64,000 nucleotides of DNA, from the NCBI GenBank assembly GCA_963402885.1, contig OY727095.1, positions 5,523,001 through 5,587,000 of the forward strand, given 5' to 3'. The position numbers were made by a program, and so were the translations under genes. The notes beneath the pieces are model-generated. The model was not told where the DNA came from and searched no databases. It worked only from the letters and a program-made list of their open reading frames with translations. This document shows, piece after piece, positions 8,504 through 64,000 of this stretch. Position 1 is the stretch's first letter. Every line of letters begins with the position of its first letter. This DNA is from Antedon bifida. Taxonomy: Eukaryota > Echinodermata > Crinoidea > Comatulida > Antedonidae.

Positions 8504-11500
8504 ATGATGTGGTGGAGAACTTTAGGTGTAGTTTTATTGGTAACTACGATTATTGTCGATCAGAGCAACTCACAGACAGCCAACACAGATTTTGCAACTA
8601 CGCAGCAGACAGAGACAGACCCTAGTGGCTTCACAACCATATCGCCTGCACACTTTGAACCGGCAACCGCACCACGCAGTTGCAGAGTGGCCGACTTCAA
8701 AGTTCAACAAAACTTCAACATTCAACAGGTACTGTTTGCGGCTTTTTTATTTATGGAATGCTGTTATTTCTGTAGTACCATACTAGTTATTGGTAAATGT
8801 CCTAACTAAAGATAACTACAAGTTATTTTTAGGCCTATGTCCTATAGTTTTGAAAAAGAAATGTAAACCCTGTTTAGATCAATACTACTATAGACTTGGA
8901 TCGTTCATAAACAATCAACTACACCATCAATATATATATATTGCAGAGGCAAAGCATAGGGTCTGGGTGGTCCGATTTCCAGTGCTGTATCTCCACATAC
9001 TATCTATTTCCGAAGTATCATAGGAATATTTGTGATGCCTTTATCATATAAGGAAAGGTTAAGGGTTAGGTTACTATTACCAAATATTCCTATGATACTT
9101 CGGAAATAGATACAGTACCGAGATTCGGCTGATAGGTGTCAGTCACAATAAGGAGATTATCGACATGGCGCTTTATCACAATAAACGTTTACACATAATG
9201 ACAACACCTGATTTCTATTATCAACAGATTAATAGATATTTGTACCTTGTTTCGTTTATAGTATAAAGGCATATGGTATGATATAGCAAATGTACGAAGA
9301 GAGGGGTTACCCCAAAAACAAGTGTCGAATTACACGTGGGATGGGGATGACGGACTGTATATGCAAAGTGATGGACTTAATATGTAAGTCTACTATTCAA
9401 AAAGTAAAATGTTACAGTCTATTTAAAAATATACATAAAGAAAAACAACAACAATTTATATATAGATAATGTATATATTGAGCAAAATTATAAATAACAA
9501 AATAAGTGTTCGGTTCAAATAATTGTTACCGTCTAAACTTCTCGATAAAGTAAAGCGAACATTATATTTGTTGAGTTAAAAAAAAGGAACGCAACAACAG
9601 TCTGTAGAGCACCTGTAACAGTTTTTGTAGCTGAGTTTCTTTTTGTTCTGAACTCGACATATAGATAGTGAACTATATAGATATAATCGAGTGTGTATTC
9701 TACATTGAAATGATATTGTGTATGCAAACTTTTACACATAATAAGATGAGAAATAAAGGGTATACAATAATTATCGAATCAGTTACCGGATAAGTGGTTA
9801 CATTTTTACTGTACAGATTAAATTACTTTCTGTAAGATGAATTAATCTAGAAGGTTACCTAAAATATAGGCTAACATTGATTTATCTATGTTAAAAGTAA
9901 TGGGGAATGTTTTAAACAAAAGATGATAGCACAGGGAATACTTACTGATCCCAGTAGAAGAGAAGGAAAGTTCCGCGTCAACATTGGAGATGTCGGCCTG
10001 GATCAAGTCGAAGCAACATCAGGTAAATGTCTCCTTTTAAAATGTATAAATATTGTAAGAGAGTAGCAAAGATACATAATGCATATTGAAACTTTTGTGT
10101 AATATTGTTGTAAAACAAGTACTATAATCTCTAATAATTAAAAACTAGAGTATGATAGATTTCTGAAAAACAGAATATCATCATTTACTCCGCTCAGAGA
10201 TACTGTGATTTTCACTCGATTCTCGTACGAATAGAAACAATAAACACTCTCATGACTACACCCTATATTCCACTATACACTAACACATTGCACTTTTTTA
10301 AAATACGGTATGCGAACGCTTTTCGACAAGTCAGCTGTCCCAACTGACAATTATAGTTCTAACATCTTAAATGGATTGTGCAGTAATTTTGTTTTCAGAT
10401 GATTATTGGGTGATTGACACTGATTACAAATCATACGCAGTAGTCTACAGTTGCCAGCTTTATCTAGCTGACGGAACGTGTTCATACAACCACACCTCAG
10501 CCTGGCTGTTGTCCAGAACCTTAACAGTACAACCAGCTGTGTACATGAGAATGGTGAAACTGTTGGAAAATCTGTGTATTTCAGAAGACAGAATCAATCG
10601 AACGCTACAAAGTATAATTTTAAACCTTAAGCGTGGTTCCCACTAGCCACTCGATTGCAACGCAGTGACGTATTGGCGCAAAGTGCTGTATTGCGTAATC
10701 ACAAGTGGGAACTGACGACGCAACCGTGCTACAAACATAACAGGTTTGATTTCAAGCAGGAGGGGGGTAGGAGCAAACACAATTAATGGAAGGGCATTTT
10801 CTTACGTTGCGTAGGTTGCGTCGCTAGTGGGAACTAAGCTTTAGGGATCATGTCTACATATTCTACTACAGTTACTCATTGATTTTAATAACAGTTTATG
10901 ATGAAGAAGAGTACTTAACATCAGCGTCCTTGTTGCAAAATATAGATATAAAACTAAGGGTCCATGGCAAAAATTATTCTAATACAGTTACTGCAGTAAC
11001 TATATTTTGTTTACTCTTTAACCTGTTTTTTTCCAGTTAGTTAAGTTAAGTTTTTTGGGGTATCATACACACTTGATTGAATTACAGAATTACATTTTTG
11101 TCTGTGATAAGTACTTTGATAGCTTCCAACAAAATGGGTTGTAAAAATAGTAAAACTGGACGACGCCAACAAATTTGTATATATGCTTATATATGTTTTA
11201 TAATTTATCTAATAACCGTTACATAAACTGAATTGTTATATTACAGATTGCAATGAGACCATTTCTGTGAACGTGAACGCCGAGAGCACCGGTAAATCTG
11301 ATGTGACGTCAGAACCAGAAGAATGCATTGTAACCAATGTTTCTCTACAAACTGATATCGACTTCAGAAAAGTAATTGAAATACAGTTATGTAAATTAAC
11401 GAATTCGAAACAACCAATCAGAAGTTAATAGTTAAATTGTGATTAATGAATAATTGATGAGTGAATAAGAATGATCGAGCCTTTTAATTTAAGTGTGAAA

Positions 11501-14500
11501 TTAGTGAATGGAGTGATTATAGAACGGCAGGAATCAACAAATTAATGAATCAATATTCTTTATGTAATGTCATTCATGTAAACATTACAACATTACACAT
11601 TATTTAGTATATGGGAACGTGGTATGAAATAGCAAAGAAACGAACCAGCGTCGATTACGAAGTGCCAGATTCTACGACCACTATTTTAACGATGACGGAG
11701 AATGACACTATTGCGATGCAACTAGACCTTTTCAGAGTGTAAGAATAATTACGTAATACGTTACGTTACGCTTTTTAACGTACATAAAGTTATGCTTTGT
11801 TTTCTACATCCCAATTCTTCTCCACTATATTATCAACCATTGCTATCTGTTCCCTGTTTCCGATGGACAGTCACTCCTCTTCTTTTGTTGCATCTTCTCT
11901 TTGAAACGAATTTCCTCCTTTTGTAAAACTTTCGCCCACTTATGAAAATATCATAGGATACAATGTGCCTTTGATCATCTTGTTGGTGGATTGCCGCTAT
12001 AGGCTATAAATGTTTGATTATTATTATTGATGATAATGTTTTTTATTATATGAAATCCTACCAATCGTGTTGTATATATCAGAGCCAACGAATGCGTAGA
12101 CATACGTGTAAATGGAGTTGCAACGACCAATGGTGGTGCGAAGTGGACGGTCACGTTCGATCCTATTGGGGACGGTGAACGTAAAATGGGTACGTTTTCA
12201 TTAATTAATATCAAACATAATCGAATGTTGTGTTTATACATGCGGATACGGTTGAATAATAATTAAATGTAATAACTATTTAATTTCTATTAATGTTTAT
12301 AAAACTTATAATTAAATTCAATTAAAATAATGACATCATTTAAATATATTGTAATGATCAAAATTTAAATCTAATAATACAAATAGCTGTTGAGACGGAA
12401 AGTCATTCTGCGTACACTCAGTAATAAAGACATGCGCTGAATGGCTGTGTGAAATTAATTGGTTGCGTCATCATGGCAACTAAGACTGCATTTTATGATT
12501 TATTTGTAGCCCCTTACTGGATAGTCGAAACAGACTATGACAACTACGCACTGATTTACGGTTGCAATGCAGATAACCACGGAGCATGCTCACATCGTGA
12601 AAACATCGTTTACGTAATGAGTCGCCAGCCTACATTGTCCAAGACCCACATGGAACGAATTGACCAACTTCTACCGTCTCTTTGTATTAAGAAAGACGAT
12701 ATTATCTTAACAAATCCAGGTAAAACATTTCATCATAGGGCTAGGCCATCATCTCCCAGTAAAAGAAACATTTATTCATTATAAGGTCTCTGGCCTACAA
12801 TATTTAAATTTCTTGAACACTGTCTGTATGCATACAGTAATACGCATATACTATGTCAGTGTTTCGCAGTAAGCTGGGTTCCCACGAAACGCAAGGACGC
12901 AAGCGCATTTAAAGCAATTTGGCGTCCTACGTTGCGTCCAAGTGGGAACCAAGTTTAAAGGACAATTTACACAGACACAGTAGCTTGTCCCACGTAGAAT
13001 CTGTATCTGTGTAAATGGTCATAAGGAATAACATAGACTCTATATTTTAATTAAGAGAGGCAACGCCCAATGCAGTTACAGTATTTGAATAAATAAATTT
13101 GGAGTACAATTTTATATTAGTTTAAACAATTTTATAGAATTTTGTGTCTAATATAATAGTTCTGTACAATATACTAGAGCTATAGCTTACATTATTTGAA
13201 TTTATATATAGATAATAATTTACTCAACTTAAAATAAAAATTGGTGTCATAATTTTTTCAGAGGAATGTCGTGGATTAAACATGAGTAAGTAGTTTTGAT
13301 TTTGTTTCAGTTGTTGATTTATAACAAAAAAATGTTGTACTTAATGCAATGTAATGTAATGTTAAAATATAATCTAGCAAAGTTCACTGTGTGAAATGTT
13401 TTATTACATGTATATTATATTAATTGTTGATCCTTAACTAGATGTATATTTACCTTTGGTTTTACATTCCCGATTTCAGCGGTTGACTTAACAGTTTATA
13501 ACACCTTGTCACAAAGCGCTGGGGTTTTCAATAAAATCGTTATTATTTTTAGATTTCTCCATTTCTATTATTTATTTATTATAGATTCATTAAACACCGA
13601 CAAAGCCCGTTTTCTCTCCTCCCAAAATAAAAATACCTAAAGATTAAAAGTGCGTTATAGGTACAGATATAAGTATTTCCAGTATTTGACTTCTTTTTGT
13701 GCTTGCTCTAATATTACTGGTTGACTTAACATCGCGATGGTTTTATTTCGCGTCCTTTAAAGATGTATTGTCCCCCAAAGTCATGAAAAATAAAGATTTT
13801 TAAAATTGGACTTTGAATAGGCCATTTTGCAGTTTTAATGAAGTTGTTCACTTCCATAAGAAAAAAAACGGGGGAAAAATTATTTCACCTATAAAAAGAC
13901 AAAATAAACAGTTAAATTACCCAAAAACTCATTGTCTTCCAGACAATTTGACAATTTTTTGCTTTAAATTACATTTTTCTCAGGTAAATAAACATTTTTC
14001 AGACCCAATTTTTTGTGAGAGTGAATAACTATTATGTGACATTAACATATTATACAACATATTCAACAAAAAAATTTAAAAAAAAAATTTTTTAGGGGGA
14101 CAATATATCTTTAATATCTGCGATAACATCCGATCGATCTACCGAGTTACATTTTCAGGGCTCTTAAATTATCGTGATTGCGATGTTATTGTTAGTTAGA
14201 TCACCCCTAGCTTAAGTAACATTTTGTCACATGAAATGGTGGTTCACATCATCTGGGCCTATGGGTGCCGTGACGTTTAATTGAGTTCATTATAATGGGG
14301 TTTTTTATATCAGACGACTGTAAACAAGTAATTTTGGATACACATTTATTTACATTATTTTATTTAATAATTGGGTTTAAGGACATTACGAAGATGAAGA
14401 TTGCGTAAGGATTGCGTAAAACTGACGTTTACTGAAGCGTGAAAGCCCAATATTGTAGAGGCCTGCTTAGTAATCATATTATTATCTCTATGGTGAAATC

Positions 14501-17500
14501 TTAACTTAGGCGAGCGTCACTTGCAAAGTTTGGTTCTGAGACTAGGGCGCGCGCAACGCAACGGCATAAGCGCAACGCAAGTAATTTGACCAATCACGAC
14601 GCAATTGATCATCCGAAGTGTTGCTATTGGTCAACTTGCGTTGTTGCACATACCGTTCTGTTTCGTAAACTCATTAATTGTTTGCCTCAACATCTTGCAA
14701 TACATCCTTGTTTGCTTCTCATGAAGTATACAGGGCGTAACACCAAACTTCAAAAGACGTTATTACGATTCAGTACACTTACACTATGCAGTCATTTTAC
14801 AGGTGATATAATCTATTCATCTAAATTTGATCAGGTATAGTAATAAATACAAATTAAATGATATAGTCGGCTGTCTCACGTAATACAAATATTATCTTTT
14901 GTGCCAGTCAATTTCGTGCATAGTGAGCAGTTTTAAAAGGTTTACAATCAGCTTTTCATTGGTATTGTTTACACACGCGGCTTTCCGTATTGGGTAGAAA
15001 AGTCTTGCGTAAAGTTTATTGGTTTTCGGCCTACGGTGATCATTCTCCGTGTTCTCATTAACCGAAGTGCATACCGATTATGTTACATATTACTATACTA
15101 TAAACCATAATGTATTAACACCTTTTCATAAAAGAAGCCGGTACAACGTATACAATACTACATACAAATATAAGAGACACCGACACACTCAATGCTTGCA
15201 ATACGAGCCTCTTAACATTGTTAAGTCAAGTTCTTCCCAATGAACGTTAGTGAAAAGTTCACATGACGCTGACTTCGCTTTTACCCACTTAAAGCGTGGT
15301 TCCCACTTGCGACGCAACGTAACGCAGCCTACGCAACGTAAGCAAATGCCCTTCCAAGGATTGTGTTTGCCTCCGGCCGCCTGCGTGAAATCAAACTTGC
15401 GATGTTTGCAGTACTATTGCACAAGTGGGAACCGACGACGCAATAGTGCTGCAAACATCGTAGGTTTGATTTCACGCAGGCGGGGGCAAACACAATGTTT
15501 GGAAGGGCATTTTCTTACGTTGCATAGATTGCGTTACGTTGCGTCGCTAGTGGGAACCAAGCTTTAAGCGTGGTTCTCACTAGAGACACAACGCAAGGAG
15601 GTAGGCGCAACGCAAGCGAGTTGACCAATGACAAGCCACTGTTCGAATAATCCATCGCTTGTGATTGGTCAACATTACGTCCTTGCGTTGCGTCGCTAGT
15701 GGGAACCAAGCTGTGATTATTTTTTACCAATGTTTTAAGTCAAATTATCAATAATCAACGTAAATCAATTGTTAACAATTATTATGAGCATTATGTGTTC
15801 ACATGAGTTGCATGGGTAAATGACGTTATTCGCATGTGTTATACGCCATAGGCCTAATCCTACCGCAAATTTATAATTCATCTATATTATGTACATGTTA
15901 TATTTATATATATATGTATATTTAAATAGTAGTTGGACCGGAAAAGAGTTTACCTGTACCGGATTTTAGCCACGTTCCAAAGGCCCTTCCTAGCCTTCAC
16001 ATAACTCCTAGGAAATGTAATCCAGAGAGGGAAGCATACGGCTGTTGCACGTTTATCGATGCACCTGCTGTGGGGCCTAACGAACAAGGGTGTCCAAGTA
16101 CGTATTATCTAATAATAATTTCGTCATTTATTCTTTAGGAAACGTTGATATGCGTTTGATTTTAGAATTTTCTCTTTTGGGTTGCCTGACACATTTTAGC
16201 ATTTTTGTGTGTACTTCTTTAAGCCTGGTTCCCACTAGAGACGCAACGCAATGACGTACGCGCAACACAAGCAACCAATGACAAGCGACAGTTCGAATGA
16301 TCAATCGCTTGTGATTGGTTAAATCACTTACGTTGCGTTACGCCGCTAGTGGGAAGCAAGCTTTATTATACAAAGAGGTTCTGGTAATAGAGTGTGAACG
16401 CACGCCATGTCATTTAATGTAAAATGTTTTAGAGTATGGAGTAAATTTACTATAATTTTAGATTTTCAAGAAATCAAATCAGCCGTGAACGCAGTCAATC
16501 AAAAACGAGGAAAATGTTGGAAAGATAGGCAGACTTCAACCGTAGATGGCGCAATATCATACCTAACCTGTAACTATGATGGCAGTTATACAGAGGTAAG
16601 TACACTCTCGCTTTAGAGACTAGAATATCAATACGATATACGGTAATACTAATACATCAATGGTTTACATTTCCAATCAATGTAAAAATGTTATATAATA
16701 TTTGTATTACACCACAATCATTTGTATATTATTTTTTTTTCCTTTGTGGAGTACACCTAACACAACACATTTCATTAAGCTCTGTCTACACTATCAAACT
16801 TAATGTGACAAAAAAAGTTTTCTGACCATTATATGGACATGATGATGTCATACCACTACCATATTTGGGCATCATGTCCATATAGTGAGCACATCACATT
16901 TTGTTGTCACATAAAGTTTGATAGTGTAGAGTACAGAGCTAAAACTGTTTTCTTTTTTGGTAGGTACAATGTGATAAATCACGGGGAGCATGTTGGTGCG
17001 TTGACAAGAAGAATGGTCAGAGAAAACCCGGTAGTGTAACAGCAAACATGGAAAAGCCAGACTGCAGTAAGTGAAGTTACGTAAGCTTGGTTCTATTCCT
17101 ACTATACGCAACGCTTCGCCAGAAGTAATTGACCAATCACGACGTGATGGATCACCCGAACTCTCGCTCGTGATTGGTCAATTCATTCACGTTGCGCCTA
17201 CGTGAGAACCAAACGTTAAAGTTATAAGTAGCCGTACAGTTTTATAACTTTTCTGCTTACACATTTTTAATTAAAATTATAGACTTTATGGCACACAATT
17301 CGTAAAACCGAGCACTAAAGTATAATTATTTTGTATATATTTTCTTGGTTCACAAACATTAGAAAATTAATATTTGACTAACTAACTAAAACCATTGTCT
17401 ATATTTCACTTGAAGGGTTGTCTAACTGCCAGCGACATCGAAAAAGGATCGACGGCTATCAATCAAGACGAAATATGAAAAAGAAATCTTTCTATCGACC

Positions 17501-18214
17501 AATATGCGAGAAAAACGGACAATATTCGGCCATCCAATGTTTCAACAGCTGGAGATACTGCTGGTGTGTTGATGAACACACGGGCAAGAAGGTGCAAGGG
17601 TCACTAGCCCAGGGAATGTTACCGGTTTGCGATAATAGGCGTGGTGAGTGGTTATTAAAACATACAAGTTTACAATCAGTCATGGTGTTGGTGTTGGTGC
17701 GTGGTGGTGGTGCGTGTTGGTGGTGGTGATGATGATGGTGGTGGTGGTGGTGTTGTTGTTGGTGGTGGTGTTGGTGGTGGTGATGATGATGGTGGTGGTG
17801 TTGTTGTTGGTGGTGGTGTTGCTGTTATTGTTGTTGTTGGTGGTGGTGTTGTTGTTGCTGTTGTTGTTGTTGTTAGTGGTGGTGGTGTTGTTGTTGGTGG
17901 TGGTGTTGTTGTTGGTGTTGTTGTTGTTGGTGGTATTGTTGTTGTTGGTGGTGGTGGTGGTGCTGTTGTTGTTGTTGGTGGTGGTGGTGTTTATTGGTGG
18001 TAGTGGTATTATTGTTGGTGATGGTGGGTGTGGTATTGTTGTTGTTTTGGTGATGGTGGTGGTGGTCATAACGGTCATGATGGTCGTGGTTACGATTTTT
18101 GTAATAACTATTACAAACTGTACGAACTATATACTGTAATAAAGTTCTGTAATTCTTTTTACAACAGAAGCATTGAATAACAGATTGGAAAGCGGAAAGC
18201 CAGGATTGGTCTAG
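8504..18214 (+). CDS. Secreted double-lipocalin, double thyroglobulin type-1 protein
   Basis: Fourteen exons join in frame to about 652 residues: 8504-8728, 9262-9383, 9898-10022, 10399-10611, 11247-11371, 11608-11738, 12083-12189, 12510-12719, 13262-13285, 15933-16097, 16462-16595, 16964-17066, 17416-17643, 18168-18214 (TAG). I chose ATG 8504 because a hydrophobic signal peptide follows ([18 protein letters not shown], likely cut near NSQ/T); an in-frame ATG at 8477 is possible. Lipocalin 1 (about residues 76-228) has GIWYDIA, DTDYKSY and LLSRT. Lipocalin 2 (about 271-419) has GTWYEIA, ETDYDNY and VMSRQ. These are the three lipocalin kernel motifs, each present twice. A Cys-rich linker follows (420-482; CNPE, GCCTF, GCP). 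Two thyroglobulin type-1 domains (about 483-561 and 562-637) each show six cysteines and CWCV. Lipocalins carry small hydrophobic ligands; Tg1 domains often inhibit cysteine proteases. Function of the combination is unknown. No membrane segment after the signal peptide. Confidence 0.85.
9000..9112. repeat. Perfect 31-bp inverted repeat (hairpin element)
   Basis: Arms 9000-9030 and 9082-9112 are exact reverse complements; one arm contains TATTTCCGAAGTATCATAGG. The spacer of about 50 bases contains GGTTAAGGGTTAGGTTA. It lies in the first lipocalin-gene intron. A related, more degraded hairpin with GGGTTAGGTTA sits at 21225-21385. Confidence 0.85.
10629..10842. mobile_element. Family B foldback element copy
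   Basis: Ends are AAGCGTGGTTCCCACTAG and CTAGTGGGAACTAAGCTTT. The interior holds the family B blocks AAAGTGCTGTATTGCGTAATC, GGTTTGATTTCA and GGAAGGGCATTTTCTTACG. It starts 17 bases after the donor of the fourth lipocalin-gene exon. Confidence 0.85.
12871..12956. mobile_element. Short family A MITE derivative
   Basis: An 86-bp palindrome with ends AAGCTGGGTTCCCACG and AAGTGGGAACCAAGTTT; the normal CCAATCACAAGC core has been deleted. Intronic in the lipocalin gene, next to a family G fragment. Confidence 0.7.
12957..13060. mobile_element. Family G inverted-repeat fragment
   Basis: Shares AATTTACACAGAC, GTCCCACGTAGA, CTGTATCTGTGTAAATGG and CATAGACTCTATATTTT with the longer copy at 34511-34705. 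No open frame. Confidence 0.6.
14527..14655. mobile_element. Family A MITE copy, degraded
   Basis: Contains GTTTGGTTCTGAGACTAGG at the left and the paired core TTTGACCAATCACGACG and TTGCTATTGGTCAACTTGCG. The right terminus is missing. Confidence 0.55.
15291..15565. mobile_element. Family B element rearranged into a long palindrome
   Basis: Two copies of the same family B half lie head to head: GCCCTTCCA...GTGTTTGCC...CGCCTGCGTGAAATCAAAC on the left is mirrored by GGTTTGATTTCACGCAGGCG...GCAAACACAAT...GGAAGGGC on the right. The axis is near 15423-15430 and the whole is about 275 bp. Confidence 0.8.
15566..15712. mobile_element. Family A MITE copy
   Basis: Ends AAGCGTGGTTCTCACTAG and CTAGTGGGAACCAAGCT, with core GTTGACCAATGACAAGC facing TCGCTTGTGATTGGTCAAC. 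It directly abuts the family B palindrome to its left. Confidence 0.85.
16221..16364. mobile_element. Family A MITE copy
   Basis: Ends AAGCCTGGTTCCCACTAGAG and CTAGTGGGAAGCAAGCTT, paired core CCAATGACAAGCGAC and CGCTTGTGATTGG. Flanked by TTA on both sides (TTTA before, TTATTA after), consistent with a 2-3 bp target duplication. Confidence 0.85.
16775..16941. mobile_element. Family C MITE copy next to a splice acceptor
   Basis: Left end TAAGCTCTGTCTACACTATC, right end GATAGTGTAGAGTACAGAGC. The acceptor AG of the next thyroglobulin type-1 exon is at 16962-16963, leaving only about 20 bases of native polypyrimidine tract. Confidence 0.85.
17083..17217. mobile_element. Family A MITE copy, degraded
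   Basis: Ends AAGCTTGGTTCTATTCCTAC and ACGTGAGAACCAAACGTT, core TTGACCAATCACGACG facing CTCGTGATTGGTCAA. It begins 17 bases after the splice donor of a thyroglobulin type-1 exon. Confidence 0.75.
17682..18070. repeat. GGT/GTT trinucleotide microsatellite
   Basis: About 390 bases composed almost entirely of GGT, GTT and GAT triplets, with strong strand asymmetry (G and T on +). It fills most of the last lipocalin-gene intron. Apparent open frames here (poly Gly/Val/Leu on +, poly Asn/Thr on -) are not genes. Confidence 0.95.
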
Positions 18215-22600: not shown

Positions 22601-25600
22601 ACCGATACAATCAATAACAATACGACATACTAATATGAACCATGAAAACCGAATACTGATGGACAGACGGACAAACTAACGAATGCGAGAATGTATCACT
22701 ACTGATTTCACTTTATCCATAAAACTACCGGCACATTATTCTATCTACTTATTTTCTATCTGCCATTATTATGTGAACACATGAGATGGAGATGGCACTG
22801 AAAGTATATGGTAAATACACCTACTACTCTAAACTCGCCCTAAATAATATTACTTTTGGTTTAAATATATTCAGAGTGCAATAAAAATGGTAACAAAAGC
22901 AGGTTACACTTTATACCAAAATTTAATTTAAAATAAAAAATTCCGAGCTCATTATTGAAAGTCAATGTTGTTGTCAGGAACTTATTTCATTTTAGCAATT
23001 ATTGACAGATATGGGGGAATTATTTATTGAACTCAAACGTAGGCCTAACTGTTTCTATCGTGTATTCAAGCGGTGATTGTTGACTATTTCTTTCTCGAGT
23101 TACGATATCCGTTACGAAACCCGGTCGTTCGGCTATAATAGACCCGGTCGTTCGGCTATAATGACCCGCTTTGTATTATTATTATTATCTGTATGTATTG
23201 ATTAGGCAAAAATTATACATCTATTTGGTGCTTAGCTTACCTGGATAAACCGATAATAGCCTCTCTCTCTCTCTACATTTACAAAAATAGTAGAGCACCC
23301 CTATCGGATAATGGTGCCGTCTACGAACCGCGCCCTTTTAGTGGGAATTTTCCCACGATACCACCGTAATAATTTATTTTGTCGGTTTATTCGTAGACCA
23401 ACGAAACTGTTGGTTTGTGTAATTTGTAAACAAAAATATAGAAAACAATTGCAACACTTACTTTACTAAATCGGTGAATATAACGTCTCTTCTGACCGTG
23501 ACCTTACAACCGTGACTTCCGTAAACAACAGTAGGCTACATTCCGCTTCTCTGTAAATCGTGGTACGTAACGTAATAACGTTATGAAGGGCCTAGCAACG
23601 TACAGTCTTCAAACAGCATTTTGATTTCCAAAACAGTAAACTGAAATTATAATCCAATATAATGAAACATTCAAAATGAAGATATAACAACAGCTTTCTT
23701 GTTACGTTTCAAGACAGTACAGAACACCATGATTTTCAACTTATTTAAATAAAAAAAAACCGTAGTTCAAACGCCCCCAAACAACTTTTCAAATACAACT
23801 TTCGTTTCACAATATATTTACCCTCCATAGCAAAATGAAATATAACATTCTATATTCTAAGCAATCTCAACATTGATATCTATAGTTACTTGTGCAAATA
23901 TGTTTAATAAAAGATATGTAAACTGCTATCACAGATTTTATAGGCTAAATGTTAACGTAACATATTTTATATCTACAGTTTCTCCATCTGTGAACAAAAA
24001 AAAATCTTCTTTTTTTTAAATAACAGAAGAAATTTACTAACACAGCGTCAGAGGATGATGATGTGGATTCAAGCGGGCCGTCAACCTCTGCATCATCCAC
24101 CCCAGTGGCACCACCAACTAAGTCAATGGTACCATCTGCACCACCCCCACCACCCGAGGCACGACCCGGAGCCCCGGAGAACGTTGATGTAGTGGTAGTG
24201 GGTGGGGGACTATCAGGTTTAACGGCCGCTTATCATCTAACTAAAAACAACAACAATATTTCAGTTGTTGTACTAGAAGCAAAGGGTAGGTGTAGTTTGG
24301 TCTGGTTCCCACTTGGACGCAACGCAATGATGTAAGCGCAACGCAATGATGTAGGCGCAACGCAATGACGTAGGCGCACGCAATGATGTAGGCACAACGC
24401 AATGACATAGGCGCAACGCAATTACATAGGCGCAACGCAATGATGTAGGCACAACGCAATGACATAGGCGCAACGCAATTACATAGGCGCAACGCAATGA
24501 CGTAAGCGCAACGCGACATGAAATTGGTCAAATTGCGACGCGCTACCTCCTTAATTGCATTGCGCCCAAGCGGGGATTAAGTTCTGTCTATCAAACTAGT
24601 TTGTGATTTGCCAAAATATGGTAGTGATATACCAAAATATGGTAGTGATATGATTGACATAATCATGTCCATTATGGGCACATCACAGTTTTTGTCACAT
24701 ACAGTTTGATAGTGTAGAGCTTTAAGCTGACGAATAATGCACATTTGGATAGCTCATGTATTCGTTCAAAGACCAGAAAATGCATGACAACATCCTTGTT
24801 CCTAAATCTATCTCATAAGGTTATGCTTTTACCTATGATCTTATTTTCCGATATATTTTCTGTTCTATAACCGTATGTTATGGTCTAGCAGGTTATATAG
24901 CCGTTTCGGTCACACCATATCCAGGATTGTTTGACACCGAGAAGCATTGGCTGTAAAAAACAGTCCTCATGGAGTAATAAAAACTGGCGTATTGGGATAA
25001 AAAGTCGATGTGATGCCGCCTAGTGTATAATAATTATAAGCCGTCATTAGCAAATTAAATTTCATTATTACTTGCTAATCCTTAAGGAACAAGAAACTGT
25101 AATTATCTTCATTCAACGTAATTACCTTTAATTATCATACCTTATTGAAACGTATAATACGTGTATATACAACATTAGTTTATAAGTACATTATCTATTT
25201 GCTAAGAATATTAATTACATTATTTTGTAGAACGCTTGGGTGGTCGTGTGTGGACACATCAAATGAAGGCGGCGTCTGGAAAAGATTTCTGGGATCTTGG
25301 CAGAACTTGGATTAACATGTTAGTATTATAAATTATAATTACATTTAATGTTGTCATCACTATAAAATCTGTATATTAAATGACATTCTCAGCGTTAGTG
25401 CGTTTATGAGGATGATGATATAACGCGTAATCCATCGTTTATAACGCTCTACCAATGTAGTGTAACGCGAAAACTGCCGCAATTGCTTTGTTTTTTCGTG
25501 ATGCGATATGACCAGGGAGTTGTAATTATGTAGACATATACGACCAAACGAAAGATTGTTGTTTTGAGGGACATATAAACCTAAAACAATTAAATTATCG

Positions 25601-28600
25601 GGTTGGAGGATTTTTTACCTTTGCACATTCTTATCTATGGCTTACAGAATTTTAAAAACATTACCACTGCGGCGCGCGGTTTATTAGTTCCTCTTTACCG
25701 TTTTTCAAATCACGGTTTCCGCTTTGTGGCATAACGAGATTGAGGACATTGAAAATTACCATAGTCCCATTTACTAATGAACATATTGTTCTAGCATCAT
25801 AGTTGCTTATTATAGATTTGTGTCATTGAATAGAACATGACAATATCAACTAATTGTGATGATGAAGTAAATTAATTATATCGTATCCTAATTAAACATA
25901 CCGTACTAAACTGGTTCAGTTATACGGTCAATTCAAAACACTGTCTAGATCTTCTGCGTTTTTAACTAGTTCTCTGCGTTTTTAATTAGTGCTTCTGTGT
26001 TTTTACTTAGTGCTTCTGTGTTTTTACTTAGTGCTTCTGTGTTTTTACTTAGTGCATCTGCCTTTTACTTAGTGATTCTGCGTTTTACTAAAGCTTGGTT
26101 CCCACTAGGACGTAACGCGAGGACGTAAACGCAACGCAAGCGTGTTGACCAATGACAAGCGTCAGTTTGAATAATCCATCGCTTGTCATTGGTCAACTAA
26201 CTTACGTACGTTGCGTTACGTCCTTGTGTCGCGTCTCTAGTGGGAACCAAGCGTTAGTGCTGCGTTTTTACTTAGTGCTTCTGCGTTTCTCCTAAGCACT
26301 GGTACTACATTATTTTATCATTAGAACTTCTCGACGTGCAATGGGTCAATAAAGATACAAGGTACAAGATACAAGATAACTTTATTGTCAAAATTGTTAA
26401 TAATTTCGAGATATGTTTTGTACCTGAGTAGAATAAATAATACGATGTGATAACTATATAAATAAATACAAATGATACAAGTGACTATCTTGAAAAGTTT
26501 TTGTTAAGGTAGAGCGAAATTGAGCAGAAAAATAATAAATATAAATGTCGACTTGAACGAATAAACGATATCAACAATAAATAATATACAGTATAAGCCT
26601 ACCTTAGCCACACAACGAGAATACAATGCGTCTATGTTCGACCATTTTCAAGAATAATAAGATATTGCTAGAATAATTTCCGATATTGTTATTATAATTT
26701 CTAACCCTAATAGAGCTTTCTATATATAATATTTACGAGAGTTAACTACACTGAAATCAATATACTCTAACCGATAAGTCCTTTTGCAATTATTTGCTAG
26801 TAATAGTGAGAACTAAGGATATAATTCGACTTTTTTCTGTTAGGTGTTTTATATAATTAATTCATGTGATCATGTACGTAAATGTCACACATTCACATTT
26901 GACCTGACACATTTTCACGATGCTAAGTTGAATAACTAATTATTTATTATTATTATTATTATTATTTATCACGTGACCATTACGATACTGATAATAATAT
27001 TATAAATAAGTAATATAATAAGTATAAATATATATTATAAGTATAACTTCAGTCACGTGAGCAGTGCAACGAGATTTGATTGGATGGCCAATATCTCACA
27101 AACAGCTGCTCTGTTCAAAATTGACATGTCGAAAGCTTGGTTCCCACTTGAACGCAACGTAACGCAGTGACGTATCGACGCAAAGTGCTGTATTGCGTAA
27201 TCACAAGTGGGAATCGACGACGCAACAGTGCTGCAAAAATCACAGGTTTGATTTCACGCAGGCGGGGGCAAACAGAGGGGCATTTTCTTACGTTGCGTAG
27301 GTTGCGTTACCTTCCGTCGCTAGTGAGAACCAAGCTTTATGACACAGCACAAGAACGTACGCGCAAAGTATAATTTGACCACAAAACCGTCGCTTGTGAT
27401 TGGACAATTACGTTTACGTCCTTACTTTGCGTTCTTCTCCTAGAAACCAATTTTAAAGGAATAAAACCATTTAAGTAAAATAAAATATTTAATTGTCTAA
27501 ACGTTGCTAGAACATTGATAGAAAGAAACGGTAAAAGACGGAACGTGGTTAATCGATAATGGTATAAAGAAAGTAGGACTGATCGATAGTTTAAATCAAC
27601 AGCGTGATACGAATATGCTGGACGGCTTAACTACTAGTAGAGTGTTGCAATTATGATACCATTGTGCATGCTCGACGTAAAATTATACAAAGATAATGAG
27701 AGCGTACAAAACATGTTTAATTACGATTAGGGTTTAAAGGTGCGCGGGGTTGTTTTGCTTTACTGACTACAACGCGTATGATACTTGGGCCTATTCTGTA
27801 TTATTCATTTTATTTTCTGTTTTGCTATACTTATCCTATTGCGTTATTTTAAGTAGCCAATTTAAGAACAATTTTCAAATCTTAATGGCACATCAAAGCG
27901 CGTTTACTTTCCTGACCTTTCGCCACCTGACAATTAACGAGTGAAAATGTTTGATCGTATTATAGGTTTTTAGCATATTATGCAATTATATAAAAATGTA
28001 AAATAAATAATTATCGTCACATATGATTTAAGTAGGTCTTATTATCATTAGATGTTTAGAGGAATAAAAGAAACAAGTCACCGAAATATATTTATAATTA
28101 TAATAATGTAACTATAAAAATTCTAAAAATAAATTGTGCATAAATTAGAATTATGCATGGAGGTACCTGTATACCTGTGGCTTGCAAATACCGTATCACT
28201 ACCAAAATAATGTTGATAATTGAATAAAGGTAATATAAAGTTACACTGATTGCAATTAATTACGGTAATTAATATAGATGAATTGAGGATACTAAGTGCA
28301 CGATTATGATGATGCCGCACTCTGATGATAAGCGTGGTTGCCACTAGAACGCAACGCAGTGAAGTATTGACGCAAAGTGCTGTATTGCGTAATCACAAGT
28401 GGGAACCGACAACGCAACAGTGCTGCAAACATCGTAGGTTTGATTTCACGCAGGCGGGGGCAAGCACAATTATTGAAAGGGCATTTTCTTACGTTGAGTA
28501 GATTGCGCTACGTTGCGTATCTAGTGGGAACCAAGCGTTAGTGCACGATTATGATGATGCCGAACTCTGATGATTATGATAATGATGATTATGATATAAT

Positions 28601-31600
28601 AGAAGTGTGATTTTTGTTAATTTTGTTTTTAGTAAACAGGCTCGAATAAACTCATTAATAAAAGAGCTGGAAATAGAGCTGTACAAGCCGTCGAGCGAAG
28701 GCCAACACCTGATGGAAATAGATGGAAGAATACAAGCATTTGAAGACTCTAGTTGGCCGTTACCGTTCTTCTCACGATTTGATATTGGCAGTTTCATCTC
28801 CAAGGTAATAATGTGACTCATTTCTGTTCTAAAATGAATTTACCGAACACAAATGAAATCACAAACATAAATCTAGATATATGACACATCTACAAAGAAC
28901 TGATAGTTAATAATAATAATTACATACTTTGCCAATACGGTAAATATATATATGGGGCGCCATAAGAAACAAAATTGTAAATCTCATACATTTGCTGCTT
29001 GTTGCGCTCCGTAGGCCAAGCCTATATTATGTATAAATATACATTTACGCAACTTGCACTGATGAAGGGCTAGTGTTGCCTGAAAGCTCTGCTAACTTTT
29101 CTGGCTGTTTTACTTTATCGTTTTGATTTAGCTTTTTGCTTATTTTATTTTATATCTCCATTGAGATCCAGCCACTGATACCCACAGCATTGTCATTTTT
29201 TCAGTATTTTGCCTTTGGATATATACATTTACGCAATATACAAATTGTATTGTACCGTATCATTCCAACCATATGCGTCTTATTAATATTTTAATTGTAT
29301 TCGTAATATAATATTTGACTTGTGCTATTCATTTCAACGCCATTATGAAACCTAATATTTTGATCGATGACTTATCCGACAAAACCTATGAGATATAAAA
29401 ATATCAATCAATAAATAATAGTAGTGCTTTGTTATGTTCACTGGATATATAGGGAAATTTACTATAAGGCAATAATCAATTCAAATGAAACCGGAATATT
29501 GTAAACAGACATGGAATGAATATAATTATAGGCACGTATTTGAATATTTGCTATAGGCACGTATTTGAATATATTTGCTATAGGCGGGTATTTGAATGTA
29601 TTGCTACATTTGTAGACGAATTACCTAACTGGGATTCATTGACTCAGCCTAGGCTAATTATAATAAGGCGACTGAATATCTGTGCAGTTTTTCTGAACGA
29701 TGGGAATCATTGAAAGAAAAATAAAATAAATCTGAAACACAAATTATAATGAGGCCTAAACAAATGAAACAAATTACAAGAAGCTTGCAAATGCCGACTC
29801 AGAATTGTAAATCGTTTGGTGTAATTTCAAAATTTATTAATAGGCCTACAGTAATAAAATATTAAATAATACTGTTCGAATTGAATAAATAAACCGGGGA
29901 AAAACCACCCGATCTTCCTAACCAATCCTAGCCCTGGAGACATTGTGCATACATTGAGGAGCGTCTTTAGCTTGGTTCCCAGTTGCACGCAACGCACGGT
30001 TGTAAAGCTTGGTTCCCACTAGAACGTAACGCAAGGACGTAAACGCAACGTTTTAACCAATGACAAGCGAAGTTATAGACAGTCAGCAATCACAAGCGAA
30101 TAAGCCATCGCTTGTGATTGGTCAATTCACTTGCGTTGCGTTACGTCCTTGCGTTGCGTCGCTAGTGGGAACCACTCTTTAGCGCTAAGAAATTAATTTA
30201 AACCAGCAATCACCAGTTCGAATCATCATCCATCGTTTGTGATTGGTCAAATCATAGCGTGGTTCCCACTAGCGACGCAACGCAAGGACGTAACGCAACG
30301 CAAGTGAATTGACCAATCACAAGCGATGGCTTATTCGCTTGTGATTGCTAACTGTCTATAACTTCGCTTGTCATTGGTTAAAACGCTTGCATTGCGTCTA
30401 CGTCCTTGCGTTACGTTCTAGTGGGAACCAAGCTTTAAGCTTGGTTCCCACTTGGATGCAACGCAAGGACGTAGACGCAATGCAAGCGAGTTGACCAATG
30501 ACAAGCGGCAGTTCGAATAATCCATTGCTTGTGATTGGTCAAATCACTTAAGCGTGGTTCCCACTAGAACGCAACGCAGCGACGTATTGACGCAAAGTGC
30601 TGTATTGCGTAATCACAAGTGGGAACGACGCAATTAGTGCTGTAAACATCGTAGGTTTGATATCACGCAGGCGGGTGCAAACACAATTATTAGAAGGGCA
30701 TTTTCCTACGTTGCGTAGATTGCGTTACGTTGCTTCGCTAGTGGGAACCAAGCTTACATTGCTCTTACGTCCTTGTGTTGCGTCTTATAGTAGGCATAAC
30801 GAAACTATGATGCAAGAAGAAATCCAGTAAATCTAATCACTAAAGTAATCGAAGAAAACAAGATGCAAAGTGTATTCGTTTTATATCGTACACGACGTTA
30901 TTCAATAACTCGTTGTGACACGATTTACACTAAATAAATATTATTATTTCATGACATGATATTAATTTTATCTGACACAGATGACTAACGTTGGCTGTAG
31001 ATTTCTTACATATCGATTTCGATTTAATCATTCTGTATTGTAATGAGTTAAAATAACAAAGTCGACTTCTTTATAAATGTACGTTGATAATAGATTGACG
31101 CAGAGGTGGCAATATTGAGAAGGATGATATGGCCAATATTCCCATGTTATTTCAATAGTTTTCGCTACATTAGGCAATGTCTGCTAAATCTTGGTTCCCA
31201 CTAGCGACGCAACGTAACGCAAGCGACGCAAGCTACGCAACGTAAGAACATGCACTTTCAATAATTGTGTTTGCCCCCGCCTGCGTGAAATCAAACCTGT
31301 GATGTTTGCAGCGCTATTGCGTCGTCGGTTCCACACTTGTGATTACGCAATACAGCACTCGATACGTCGCTGCGTTGCGTTCTAGTGGGAACCACGCTTA
31401 ACAACCCGGTGGTTAATAATTATAATTCGGAATCCGATAATGACCGTGAACTCTTTATCACTTCCTACCACCTCTGTCACTCTTCTTTGTCGCTTACGAG
31501 AGGTGGTCAATTATGAGAAGCGGTCCCTTAAAAGAGGTGATCGTTCAATAGAGGTGGTCACTTACGAGAGGTCGTTGTGACGGGAGATAGTCGATTATGA

Positions 31601-34600
31601 GAAGCGGCCCTTTAATATATATATATATAAAACAGAGAATAAATGAAACAAACAAAAATATACTCTCTGAATTTGTAACGAATGACTAATATAAGCTTTG
31701 TAAAACATTTACAGGTAGAAAATATGCGCAATGTAGTGCCAATAGACGACCCTACTAAATGTCAACATGCGTGGGATTGGGATAAGACGACGTTTGAACA
31801 GTTCCGAGCAGACGAGCTGTATACAGACGGTAAGCTTCTCGCGCATTTATATTGATGATAAAAACAGCAAACGACTTGAAACTAGAAAACACATCGATCA
31901 CAATAAAACACGTATTATGTTGAAAGCAGGTCGTCTACGACCGTGTTTAATATTCCGTCTAAAACAACTCATGTTTTATGTAAAATGATTCAGCATAATG
32001 TTGTTCAAATCAATTCAATTTAAACCAAATGTTTAATTTCAGAAACAAACTGTATAATATTATGTCCATGTACACAATTATCATTTTAAAAATATTATTT
32101 CATTGTGTAGCTGCAATTAATGCTGTAGATACATTAATTATGCTCGAGTTCGGTGTGACATCACGAGAGATTTCTCTTTTATATGTGCTACATTATCTTA
32201 ACTGCTGCGGTGGATGGAGTTACCTGATGAGTGAAAAGGAAGGACAAGCTAGAGATTACAAAATAAGGGTACATATGCATTTATTTATAAAAGGCTAACT
32301 AATGATAAACGCGCGCGTACAAACAACGTTGATAACATCATCAATTTTAGTACGCGCTCGTCAACATTCAGTTGAAATGCGTGTATAAACGAAATTAACA
32401 CGATACACTTTGGAATACACGTTAGCCAATATGCCAATTTATAATTTTATCAGCAGATAACGTGATATTTAAGTACGCGCGCGCCTATTTAATGTAGGTC
32501 TTTAATCATGTCACTGATTATGATTGGTTGCTTTATTTTTTTGCATTATACAAAAAGCAACAACATAAATCAATATGTAAATTTACTATTGACGTGAACT
32601 TCAAACGAAAATAATACATTATGTTTATGCTTATTTCTTTAGGGCTTTCATTTTTTTTTTTAACATTGAGCGTTTAAAAAATGTGTTCATCAACGCTTTA
32701 CAAACGTAATTCAAACGCAATTTTTTCCTTTTTGTAAATAATTGTTTTCGAATATTAAAAATGGTAAAATCTTTGATTTAAAACTGTTTAATATGTGCTA
32801 TTATTAATTTGAATATTTCCATTATGATGTAGGGTGGTTCCCAAACACTATGTGAAGTGTTAGCTAACAAGATAAAACGGAAGAAAATACGGTTACGAGA
32901 ACAAGTAGTTGAAATCGACCAAAGAGATAGGGATAATGCATTGATAACGACAAAAACTGGAGAAGAATATATGGCGAAGAAAGTTATTGTAGCTGTGTCT
33001 TCGCGTGCAGCAGGTGAGGTATTACGCATCTTATAACAGATATAGTAGAGAAGTGAGATTTTATTACTAAAGCATGAAACTTGGCACAAAATGTCTTTGA
33101 TGTACAGTATATAGATTCAAAATATCAGGGGGGGGGGGGGGGTGCGCCAAGGGTCCAACGTCCGGTACGGCGGCCAAACATAAAAACACAAAGTGTTCAT
33201 ATCTTGGCAACTATACACAGTAGAGACTTGATTCTGGTTTAAAATTCACAAACTACATATTTCTATTTGATGGCGTTAACTGCTCCACTAATTTAAACTG
33301 TGCATCTTTGTTGAATATTGTATCTACGAGATGCCATGCGTTACAAAATAAACTGGAGTTTTCAAGGCACATGCATTCTTTCTAGGTTGCTTATAACTGT
33401 CGTCCCCATGTGTACACGCATATTCTAATCTATTTTTATAATGTTTTCCTAAATCAATAGATAAAATAGAATTTTTACCAAATCTTCCACCGGCAAAAAC
33501 AAGTTTACTTCAACGAATGCCAACGGGTACGATGTACAGAGCTGTTGTAACTTACTCAGAGGCGTTTTGGAAAAAGAAAGGCTTTAGTGGGCAGATCATT
33601 CGAATAACGAACACAGAGTTTGCGCATAAGAAAAATAGCTGTGAATTCTTCCATGCAGTTTACGATGCTACCACGTGGAACCACAACCCGGCTCTGCAGG
33701 TTTACTACACGGGTCTTGTGAAACCTGACATCCAGGTATTTTAATTGTATTTATTCAGATCTTGGTTAAACTTTTGAGTTTAAAAAAAGTGTAACAAATA
33801 ACCGAACAATAAATTTCTTCAGTAGTGTAATCATTATTTATATTCAAAATACGGGTATTTCAAAGAGTAGGTAACTAAATAAAAGTTAAATGAGTGTTTT
33901 AGTTAATGATATATCCAAAAGTTTAAAATGGATACTGTACGGCACGGTATCTTAATATAACTAATATTGTAAAAGTATTTCTCATTTTGAATGCGAAGAC
34001 CAATACTTACAGTAGTATAATATTTTACAATATATTACATTCCATTATATCACCATCAGGCAAACGTCACTTAGTAAAAAAAAATCCATTTTTACTTGAT
34101 TTACAAGTCCAATTTAGACTTTGTAATATCGACTAATAATTCATTGACGTTCGTATTAGTATTAGCTAATAATATGGTACCAAATATTTCTTGTAGCCCG
34201 AAGATCGTCAGAGCACCATATTGCATTCTTTACGGAATTTCTTTGGTTGCGTAGAGGCGTTAGAACCGCTGGATTTCTTTGAAGTTGTAAGTGTCCACTA
34301 TTTGAACGAAGAATAAACTGTGCCTTCTTATATAAATTATTCAATACCGTACACGATAAATAATTTATAAAGATATTTACAATAACAGTCATCATCGAGA
34401 GAAACGGTACTACAGTTGATTAATAACAAATGAAAGGATAAGTGTATTATTATAGATAGATTCTCATACTCTATAAAATTATTGCGCAGTTTGGTACATT
34501 GAATTCCGCGTAAAGGCCAATTTACACAGACGATCCGAGCGGTAACGGTAAGCGGAAAACTGCGTAGTTTGTCCAACGTAGATCTGTATCTATCCTGAGC

Positions 34601-43258: not shown

Positions 43259-46200
43259 TTAATAAACAACATATATACTATTAACGGATTGCGTTCTCAC
43301 CCTCTTTTTATTGTGGGCAGCTATTCTGTTAAATTCAATTTCCTCCATGCAGAGTTTTACCGTTTGTGGTGTGGATGAATTTACAAGGTTATTACCACTA
43401 CACTCCTCACTTGCCGTAGTAGCACTGTCAAAATAACGACATAATCATTTAATAGATGAATTTAGATTCATGAATGTAGCTGAGCTGAGGCTTATAAAAT
43501 TTCATATACATCCAACAGTGAGCAACAGGATGGATAAACAATATTGTAGCCATATGTTTGTGATGAGGAGAACACTCGTTTTATGAGTATGTTCGCAAAT
43601 ACATTTACAAATTTAGATTAAGAGTTATAAATATTCATAATGAAATTGAAGAGTGCACTGTGTAGCACATGTTTAGGTTCTCAAGGCGAGAAAATACTAT
43701 TTTATTGTTACCTATTTTTCATTTTATGTTTTTCTTTGATTTGTGTTATGTTGATTGGGAAGATATTTCTAAAGTTGATAAAACCAATAAAAATAAACAA
43801 ATACAACTTACGAGTGAATGGCTGGCAGCCTGACTGGTGCGGCTGTGATCATAGCGTTGTCTAATGTTTGTTTTGCATTGCGAGCTGCTTTACTTTTTAT
43901 TATGTCGGAAACATTCTTTCCTGGAAACAGTCTGGGAAGAAGAGCTAAAATATCCTGGTGGCCTGGGTCAAGGTGTAATGCTACTAACAAGTCCTGGCGA
44001 GATCCTGCCTGGTTCTAACAATGACAAATAATATTTTTTTATAAATAAAACAAAATATTCTATATTGAGGTTTTTTATATAGATTATAATTTGGAAACAA
44101 ATCTGAGATACACATATCACAGTCTTAAAAATATGAATGAATTACCTTAACTGTTTTTAAGGGGACACCTTCAGGGCCCAACAAAGCACTCCTTAATATG
44201 ATTTCTTCTTAATTTTAGCCTGTTTTGTTTTAGTGAGTTTTATAATTGCTTAGCTTTTCTGTTTTAATTTTATCTACTAACTAGAAAATCTTTTAATTCA
44301 TTAATATAAATATTTTATACTTTTTTTTTTTTCAATGTATAATTTTCTTGTTTGTTCTTCAGTTTGATAATTGTGATATTGTAGTTTTATTTCTTTCATA
44401 CGGCCTCGTGGAAGAACACATTTTGTTGTGAACGAGCCTCCGTTTTAAAATAAAGATATTATGATTATTATTATTAATATTGCTTTGTGAGTCTGCCATA
44501 GCCAAAACAAAATACCACTTAAAGTTGTTTTAATTTAATTTAAATAGGAGATTCAAGATTCAATTTATTGTCACATAATATTACGTACATGGAATTTGTT
44601 TTCCTGAGCTTAGAAACATAGATACAATACAATTTAAAACACAATATAAAAACGTAACACCTTAACTAATTATTATTAGTGACCCAAAGGAGAGAATTCT
44701 ACATAGAATTTCTACACTATTATGTTAAAACGTAAATCTGTTTGCATACCTCCATTGTAAAGCGGACTTTAGCCCTGTACACATAGTAACTGCCAACCTT
44801 AGGGCTGTGCTGCATTGCTAGAGTGAACCTGGCCTCAGACTCCTGCAAATTGTGCTCTTCATAATCAAGTAGTCCGAACTCAAAATGCACTCGAGCTATC
44901 CTCGAGTGGATGTTGCAATCTAGGTTGTCTAACTCGAGCGCTTGATGATAATCAGCGAGCGAGAAGTTTAACTCGCCCAGTCGGAAGAAACAGTCTATAA
45001 AACAGACCAACAGAAAAAAATGTATATTTAGGTTTTTAGGAAAGCAGAAGCAGAAAAAAAAACAAAACATACAAATCATATTTTCTGAAAATACAGTTCT
45101 AGAAATAGATGGTTTGATGACTACATTTAACATAATAATAATAATTATTGAACATTTATAAAGTGCTTTTTACTGGAGTCACAGCGCAACATGAAAAGAA
45201 TAACTATTGAAATAGGTGAGTTTTTACGAGAGATTTGAATTGAAAAGGGGATGGAGTGTAAAGGGTGGAATGAGGAAGTTGGTTCCAGATCTCTGGTGCC
45301 TGAGCACCACTGATTTAAGTGTTTTTTAAGGGGGCAGCTTTGGGACCAAACAAAGTGTCCCCTAATAGGAGTGTCAAAAGGAGGGGTTCTACTGTAGTAA
45401 AACCATTTAATATAATAATTTAGCTCAGTCAAGAAGTTACAGATTAAATCGTAATAAAATTAAATATCTTCTTACCTCCTCTGTTAATATAAAGACCTTT
45501 CTCTCTTTTTTCTCCCTTAATCGCTTTGTTCAGCAGCACCACGGCTTCGTTGTAATGTCCCCGCACAAAACATTCAACAGAAAAGTCGTTATAGGTCAAC
45601 AGAAGTTGGCGCTGTGCATCCATATAAATCGCATCTTGTTCGTCGTGACCCGATTTATCCATGGCTAACAAGTAATCATCGATCGAGGCATTGAAGTCGT
45701 GAAGCTTGCGATGAAGTGCACCCCTATGAATTCACAAATTAATAAATACTGCAATATTTATTATTTTACTAATTTATTCTGTTTAGTAGAGTGTGAAGGT
45801 ACATTGATTAACAATTGTTAAATAATGCATACTATTGCACGCCATGTGACCCACAATCGTCCAATCAAATGACATGAATTTAATTGGGTGTTATATAATA
45901 TTGATTATTAGGTTAAATAATATATTCTAATTAATTTTCTTATTTGATTGAAAAAGGTAAGACATTTTTAACAGCAAGAATTTTACCAACTCCGGAAAGA
46001 ACACACACTTGTATATAATCACCTCTACTGTTTCTTTAATGGCCTACCTTAATATATGATATTCAGGTACGGTAGGATTATGCTCAATAGCGTTAGTAAT
46101 CTTCTGTAACGCATCCTTAAACCTTCCCTGAAGTTGTTGTTGAATGCAGTTGCTACGATACTCGTCGGCTTTTTCTTCAAGTTGCTTCATTAGTGTCTTC

Positions 46201-55204: not shown

Positions 55205-55455
55205 GATGTTAAATGTGCTCTCCCTGCCTCAGCACTAAGGCCCTGCCACAGCCTTTTGGGGTCGTTTCCAGCACATCACCAGATGCATTGATGTTGTCGC
55301 CTCATGATGTGTGGTGGAAAGGGGGACGTATAATTCTGTGAACCCCAAACACAGTGGCCGCATGCCTTTAACTCTATTCCACCGACCAGCGTGGGAATCG
55401 AACCCACGACATACGTGTTGTCAACACGACGCTCAGGCGACTGAGCTAACTGATC
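55205..55455 (-). mobile_element. tRNA-derived SINE
   Basis: On the minus strand a 73-base tRNA-like head (55455-55383) leads into a tail with GGCATGCGGCCACTGTGTTT, CATCATGAGGCGACAACATC and GGGCCTTAGTGCTGAGGCAG, ending in an A/T-rich stretch near 55190. Head plus unrelated body plus A-rich end is the usual SINE layout. It sits inside the 2.9 kb element. Confidence 0.65.
55383..55455 (-). tRNA. tRNA-like sequence, anticodon GAC (Val-like), probably a SINE head
   Basis: Folds as a full cloverleaf: 7-bp acceptor stem GATCAGT/GCTGGTC (two G-T pairs), D arm GCTC/GAGC, anticodon arm TCGTG-TTGACAA-CACGT with a mismatch at 27-43, T arm GTGGG-TTCGATT-CCCAC, discriminator G. Both internal promoter boxes are intact. 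Anticodon GAC is not normally used by eukaryotic valine tRNAs, and the SINE tail follows directly, so a working tRNA gene is unlikely. Confidence 0.45.
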
Positions 55456-63588: not shown

Positions 63589-64000
63589 CTGTTGAATAAA
63601 CAAAAGGAACACGGTTTGTTGAATCTGTGGCTACAGCTCTTGAATTATGTATGGTTTTCTGTACTGAGACTAGATTCTTGGCATCTGCCAACACAAACAA
63701 AAAGAGAACATAGAATAGTAAAAAGAAACAAAAAAAAAAAGGACAAACAAAATAAGAAAAAGAGTGTACAGTAAGAAAGAATTTACAAACACATAACACG
63801 AAAAAAGATTTTGGGTCTCAGTATTTGAAATATTATTTGACAATATTGCAAAAATGGGCACAGCTTTCAAAAGTGTAATATTTTATCTGTACAAACATTA
63901 TTACATTTGTTTAAATCATGAAGGAATAACTTATTTCTCCATGTTTAAATCAACTCACTTTTTTGGAGCCAACACTAACACTATGTGTTGTAAACTATAA
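63589..64000 (-). other. RXR intron with a second in-frame acceptor
   Basis: The intron upstream of the RXR terminal exon. The frame stays open from about 63799 through the exon, and GTGTTGGCAG at 63694-63685 repeats the context of the main acceptor. Further right it is AT-rich with no other exon seen. Confidence 0.6.

Follow-up and report, generated by a model that had tools for sequence, protein, structure and literature searches.

Two RBP4-like lipocalin barrels and two thyroglobulin type-1 domains in what is likely a single gene

Carriers joined to protease-inhibitor modules have arisen more than once. One such carrier is the alpha-1-microglobulin/bikunin precursor (AMBP). Another is saxiphilin, the frog saxitoxin-binding transferrin, which, according to a published account (PMC10889554), engages two proteases through its pair of thyroglobulin type-1 (Tg1) domains; that account names both saxiphilin and p41 as cathepsin inhibitors. 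According to the same source, the Tg1 domains of thyropins inhibit cathepsins by way of loops L1-L3, and a Gly and a Pro in loop L1 are described as conserved (PMC10889554). The present analysis concerns a predicted gene at positions 8504-18214, on the forward strand, of a 64 kb window (C8:5523001-5587000, the whole stretch of DNA that was analysed; the surrounding genome, searched throughout, comprises 315.6 Mb in 27 contigs). An earlier reading of the letters of that window (hereafter the original prediction) had proposed that two lipocalin domains are fused there to two Tg1 domains; the results given below indicate that such a fusion is likely, that its lipocalins resemble plasma retinol-binding protein (RBP4), and that an additional exon with four cysteines lies between the two halves.

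Exon borders were picked by eye on the sequence and then spliced into a model of 13 exons, in which all 12 introns are of the GT-AG type and every junction keeps the frame. The model ends at a TAG codon (18212-18214) and encodes, in order, a signal-peptide-like start, lipocalin 1, lipocalin 2, the four-cysteine linker exon (a feature absent from the original prediction), two Tg1 domains and a short tail; no N bases occur between 8000 and 18500. The exon chain that had been carried in frame through both lipocalins and both Tg1 domains was recovered in the spliced model and in Pfam searches of it, and the earlier length of 652 residues became 644 upon re-splicing. In the Pfam searches, which had been proposed as a check, Lipocalin (E 1.4e-20), Lipocalin_2 (E 4.9e-22) and Thyroglobulin_1 (E 2e-25) each matched above cut-off in two stretches, accompanied by Triabin, another lipocalin-like family (1.2e-11).

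The lipocalin half occupies the first eight exons. Exon 1 (8504-8728), the start of which reaches a hydropathy peak of 2.87 over 11 residues in a scan for signal-peptide-like starts, encodes that start, a Ser/Thr-rich stretch and the N-terminus of lipocalin 1 (CRVADFKV); an alternative start, ATG 8477, is in frame with it. The first barrel continues through exon 2 (9262-9383; GxW strand), exon 3 (9898-10022; a Cys matching RBP4 C70) and exon 4 (10399-10611; the TDY motif, and Cys matching RBP4 C120, C129 and C160), and ends in exon 5 (11247-11371), which holds the Cys matching RBP4 C174 together with a linker and the N-terminal part of lipocalin 2. The second barrel then extends through exon 6 (11608-11738; GxW strand), exon 7 (12083-12189) and exon 8 (12510-12719; TDY motif). 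When the barrels were scanned alone, they scored 34.5 and 52 bits against Lipocalin_2 (cut-off 24), and 31.8 and 48.4 bits against Lipocalin (cut-off 23); the GxW, TDY and C-terminal Arg motifs that had been claimed for each were found by eye in both.

The barrels appear RBP4-like in sequence, more clearly so for lipocalin 1 than for lipocalin 2, a point absent from the original prediction; closeness was judged here on PDB sequences. For lipocalin 1, RBP4 supplied the top 17 of 39 matched PDB sequences (1e-16 to 1e-15), with ApoD at 1.4e-7. Lipocalin 1 is 31% identical to RBP4 across 169 alignment columns, and lipocalin 2 is 25% identical across 166 (of the human RBP4 letters used, the part displayed in a PDB alignment agrees by eye); the two barrels are 29% identical to each other, and by bit score lipocalin 1 lies slightly nearer to lipocalin 2 (77.4) than to RBP4 (72.8). 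Cysteines 4, 70, 120, 129 and 160 of RBP4 have aligned partners in both barrels. In lipocalin 1 the set of six is completed by C230, the partner of RBP4 C174. This residue is encoded at the beginning of exon 5 and requires that exon 4 be joined to exon 5, thereby tying the first barrel to the second.

The Tg1 half follows in exons 10 to 12, each domain having CWCV and six Cys as had been claimed, with the first Cys of domain a uncertain since its Pfam match covers only profile positions 26-67. That domain is encoded by exon 10 (16462-16595; first half) and exon 11 (16964-17066; second half, with CWCV), and its N-terminal half is divergent; a TAG inside a genome-search Tg1 match near exon 11 falls on the intron side of the acceptor. 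Domain b, which is full length in Pfam, lies whole within exon 12 (17416-17643), and is followed by exon 13 (18168-18214), with a C-terminal tail of 15 residues and the stop codon; a candidate poly(A) signal lies beyond it, at 18363. Scanned alone, the two Tg1 pieces scored 46.1 and 60.6 bits (cut-off 20.6). In a PDB search with the whole Tg1 half, the nearest match was thyroglobulin (4.4e-50), followed by saxiphilin (1.3e-13) and p41 (1.7e-6); domain b, which resembles the Tg1 domains of p41 and saxiphilin, matched p41 at 2.3e-7. When exon 12 is read in a different frame, its start bears a resemblance to that of domain a (E 5.2), which was put down to chance.

The two halves are separated by intron 8 (12720-15932, phase 1), and the evidence that they belong to one gene comes from exon 9, from cysteine counts and from intron phase. 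Exon 9 (15933-16097) is a linker with the pattern C-x8-CC-x14-C; it had no Pfam family above cut-off, its Cys motif had no PDB match up to E 10, and in the genome it matched itself alone at E up to 10. Its pattern, with YGCC, resembles the GCC motif of papilin type, a likeness that no library match accompanies. Codon use was scored after training on 1,266 codons, from 13 loci of the same genome and three other exons of the window, with 11 of the gene's 12 introns as the contrasting set, and the null set comprised stop-free intron windows of equal length, taken at each third base on both strands. Exon 9 scored 0.192 per codon, a value reached by none of 55 null windows; each of exons 2-11 likewise exceeded all null windows of its length (from 0 of 6 to 0 of 354), there were zero windows of matching length for exons 1 and 12, and 3.1% of 1,637 windows equalled or surpassed the score of exon 13. 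These comparisons serve as guides and not as probabilities, for the null windows overlap and derive from introns used in training.

The intron phases run 0-2-1-1 through lipocalin 1, 0-2-1-1 again through lipocalin 2, and then 1, 0, 1, 1, from which it follows that exon 9, domain a (exons 10 and 11) and domain b (exon 12) are each phase 1-1 modules, the class moved most easily by exon shuffling. The second barrel aligns five of the RBP4 cysteines, and its possible sixth is C448 in exon 9, which requires that exon 8 be joined to exon 9. That pairing is the weaker of the two, the alignment bridging it by a long gap: in lipocalin 2 the partners of Cys 160 and Cys 174 are 40 residues apart, compared with 13 residues in lipocalin 1 and 14 in RBP4. 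Alternatively, C448 may be part of exon 9's own four-Cys motif, whose cysteines span residues 448-473. Removal of exon 5 would leave lipocalin 1 one Cys short, and removal of exon 9 would do the same to lipocalin 2.

The original prediction had named two signs of adjacent genes, a lipocalin-only ending within 12.7-15.9 kb and a separate start before 16462, and both were sought at the level of sequence. Reading through the end of exon 8 gives 21 residues before a stop (12782-12784), and one candidate start was found, ATG 16150 in intron 9, which is signal-peptide-like and possesses a phase-1 donor. Together with the length of intron 8 (3.2 kb) and its 13 AATAAA/ATTAAA hexamers, which are possible poly(A) signals, they are compatible with an arrangement in which a double lipocalin ends past exon 8 and a secreted inhibitor with two Tg1 domains begins at 16150 on the same strand, its leader spliced to exon 10. 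Both extensions score like intron, however: the read-through at -0.168 (52.9% of 982 null windows at or above it) and the 16150 leader at -0.28 (70.6% of 1,058). With a smaller training set, the leader of exon 1 (its first 20 codons) scored -0.05 and that of 16150 scored -0.32; since the exon 1 leader, which serves as a control, is also low, leaders are poorly judged by this measure. Two genes would furthermore leave the coding-like exon 9, which has no in-frame ATG, as an orphan, and lipocalin 2 with an odd number of cysteines, and we regard such a pair as unlikely.

A further possibility is that alternative ends and starts yield lipocalin-only, Tg1-only and fusion proteins from the same locus, for which the early stop after exon 8, the possible leader at 16150 and the long intron 8 might provide the means. 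Since neither alternative end displays coding-like codon use, that outcome is considered quite improbable.

The candidate start and the hexamers just described weigh against a single gene, as do several further points. Within intron 8 the start scan turned up no signal-peptide-like start in phase 1, which favours one gene, but this absence is weak, because at the threshold used (1.8) there were 28 candidates on the forward strand of the 64 kb, which predicts only about 1.4 by chance in 3.2 kb. The coding set used for training was rich in Tg1 and lipocalin exons, and exon 9 is neither. The whole model contains 27 cysteines, an odd number, so that one may be unpaired, or engaged in an intermolecular bond, or the model may be slightly wrong; an additional exon in intron 8 that would even the count was sought, and the one weak candidate (13943-14014) was rejected for its poor splice sites. 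With these points taken into account, one gene is in our judgement likely, and clearly the better reading than two; the fusion originally claimed, which gains from a coding-like exon 9 and from alternative ends that resemble intron, stands as likely and not as proven.

Repeats are present in several introns of the gene. Intron 8 harbors fold-back repeats resembling miniature inverted-repeat transposable elements (15288-15712), whose four inverted pairs have arm lengths of 96, 44, 37 and 30 nt. By eye, ends similar to their GGTTCCCACT...GACGCAACG termini appear again in introns 4 and 9, with a poorer likeness in intron 11. Intron 12, directly past the last Tg1 exon, contains a long GGT/GTT triplet repeat (17660-18080).

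The account that we favour, and hold to be reasonably probable, is that of one gene encoding a secreted, glycosylated protein with two RBP4-type lipocalin barrels, a cysteine-containing linker and two Tg1 domains, together with the origin and function outlined here. Its domain content and order, its phase-consistent exons and a coding-like linker exon are read from the spliced model; that a single transcript carries all of the exons is a step that we infer. An RBP-like lipocalin would have been duplicated internally, after which phase-1 modules would have been added at its last intron. The halves of AMBP were joined by the same kind of lipocalin last-intron join. Six N-glycosylation sequons, all of them in the lipocalin half, combine with the secreted start to suggest an extracellular glycoprotein, and because no furin-type RX[KR]R site was found in the spliced model, and hence none between the halves, carrier and Tg1 pair would be expected to remain joined. 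Each barrel would transport a hydrophobic molecule, for instance a retinoid or a carotenoid, and the Tg1 pair would either bind papain-type cathepsins or else hold the carrier at matrix or at a receptor, so that carrier and protease contact would travel together in the manner of saxiphilin. Our best guess is a secreted protein that transports hydrophobic ligands and ends in a thyropin-like tail; it may couple ligand transport to cysteine-protease control, as had been suggested originally.

The functional part of that account has its own difficulties. The closest PDB matches of lipocalin 2 are Sandercyanin (5.9e-13) and a plasma RBP (8.3e-13), which tie. Both barrels keep an RBP-like framework, but of 20 retinol-contact positions of RBP4 three are identical in lipocalin 1 (L37, D102 and S119) and none in lipocalin 2. 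In loop L1, close to the second Cys and as read by eye, domain a has a Gly without the Pro (DGAISYLTC), and domain b a Pro without the Gly (KKSFYRPIC). Domain b is a plausible inhibitor of cathepsins, whereas inhibition by domain a is doubtful.

Numerous Tg1 domains lack protease-inhibiting activity, and nidogen and the IGFBPs provide examples of tethers. The pair in the fused gene might accordingly serve to fix a localised carrier to matrix or to a receptor, a possible reading in which we place limited confidence, and which overlaps the second of the two Tg1 roles in the favoured account. The divergent N-terminal half of domain a points in that direction, as does the strongly basic character of domain b, which could allow it to bind glycosaminoglycans; the full-length Pfam match of domain b and its likeness to p41 and saxiphilin point toward inhibition instead. 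The most far-reaching proposal, which we find rather doubtful, is that the protein would represent an undescribed class of secreted carrier, a two-barrel RBP4-type lipocalin tied permanently to a thyropin pair, which delivers a retinoid-like ligand with its own cathepsin control and constitutes an independent lipocalin counterpart of saxiphilin.

Searches of the genome, in which the numbers of matches are lower bounds, located the lipocalin-Tg1 combination once. The PF00061 profile matched at least 8 places: three are on C14, two each on C13 and in this gene, and one on C12. Those on C12 and C14 are single open frames that presumably encode fatty-acid-binding proteins. The lipocalin half as a protein query matched at least 11 places, of which 3 are on C13 (E 0.0066 to 0.5) and the other 8 within the gene. 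With the PF00086 profile at least 44 matches were obtained, and two belong to this gene; of the remaining 42, the one closest to a lipocalin match is on C14, about 0.37 Mb from a fatty-acid-binding-like frame. A tandem lipocalin cluster at C13:22685001-22715000 comprises five exons with TDY and five with GxW, one of each kind lying on the opposite strand to the other four, with a further lipocalin match at C13:22683584; within its 30 kb no Tg1 match was better than E 0.18, and the sole Tg1 match of that contig, at 2.74 Mb, lies about 20 Mb away. The same cluster was considered, on exon structure, as a source of the lipocalins of the window. At all five of its GxW places strand A and the GxW motif share one open frame, and because these exons lack the phase-0 intron common to both window lipocalins, such an origin is not supported. 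A recent spread of the fusion was also rejected, exon 9 having no second match in the genome at E up to 10 and the lipocalin half recurring outside the gene only at the three weak C13 places.

Elsewhere in the window, the C-terminal exon of an RXR nuclear receptor was identified on the reverse strand at 63341-63817 (PDB RXR-alpha, 2.4e-36; Pfam Hormone_recep, 2.5e-13), at a distance of about 45 kb from the RBP4-like barrels. In human, RXRA is situated near a lipocalin cluster at 9q34, and an old linkage of RXR and lipocalins is possible. Downstream of the fusion lie exons of a flavin amine oxidase-like gene (24024-33741, forward strand; NAD_binding_8 at 2.9e-8, and Amino_oxidase at 5.7e-4, just under the cut-off), a gene with TPR repeats (44723-47690, reverse strand; TPR_2 at 6e-14 in the best open frame) and a tRNA gene (55383-55455, reverse strand; Rfam, 50.8 bits).

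If the favoured account is correct, the joining of a lipocalin to Tg1 would be a third independent case of its kind, and the tie between a carrier and protease control would appear to be a repeated solution, one possible benefit being that the carrier survives uptake into compartments rich in cathepsins. The RBP4-type lipocalins would, if that assignment is true, belong to an animal that is possibly not a chordate, and would bear on the question of when extracellular retinoid carriers arose. In a survey of literature titles and the starts of abstracts on lipocalin with thyroglobulin type-1 or thyropin, no lipocalin-Tg1 fusion was described among the matches listed. With thyroglobulin type-1 these were 11 of 12 papers, 8 of them on ticks, and with thyropin 10 of 22, every one on the saliva or salivary glands of ticks. 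The protein would represent a new combination of two known families, and a predicted protein of the same order may sit unnoticed in databases.

Comparison with the nearest described proteins places the predicted product among several of them. It shares with RBP4 the six-Cys pattern and the identities given above, and departs from it in its tandem barrels, its fused tail and its mostly changed pocket residues. Like the thyropins (MEROPS I31), among them the p41 fragment of the invariant chain, it has the Tg1 fold with CWCV, whereas its L1 residues are only partly kept. AMBP similarly places a lipocalin ahead of a pair of protease-inhibitor modules, but has one lipocalin, Kunitz domains in place of Tg1 and a furin cut between its halves; here no RX[KR]R site is present, and no Kunitz family appeared among the Pfam matches to the model at an E limit of 10. 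Saxiphilin, finally, is built on a transferrin fold with its Tg1 domains embedded, as described in PMC10889554, in contrast to the lipocalins and C-terminal Tg1 domains of the present model; it nevertheless resembles that model in being a small-molecule-binding carrier with two Tg1 domains, and among PDB matches to the Tg1 half it ranks directly behind thyroglobulin.

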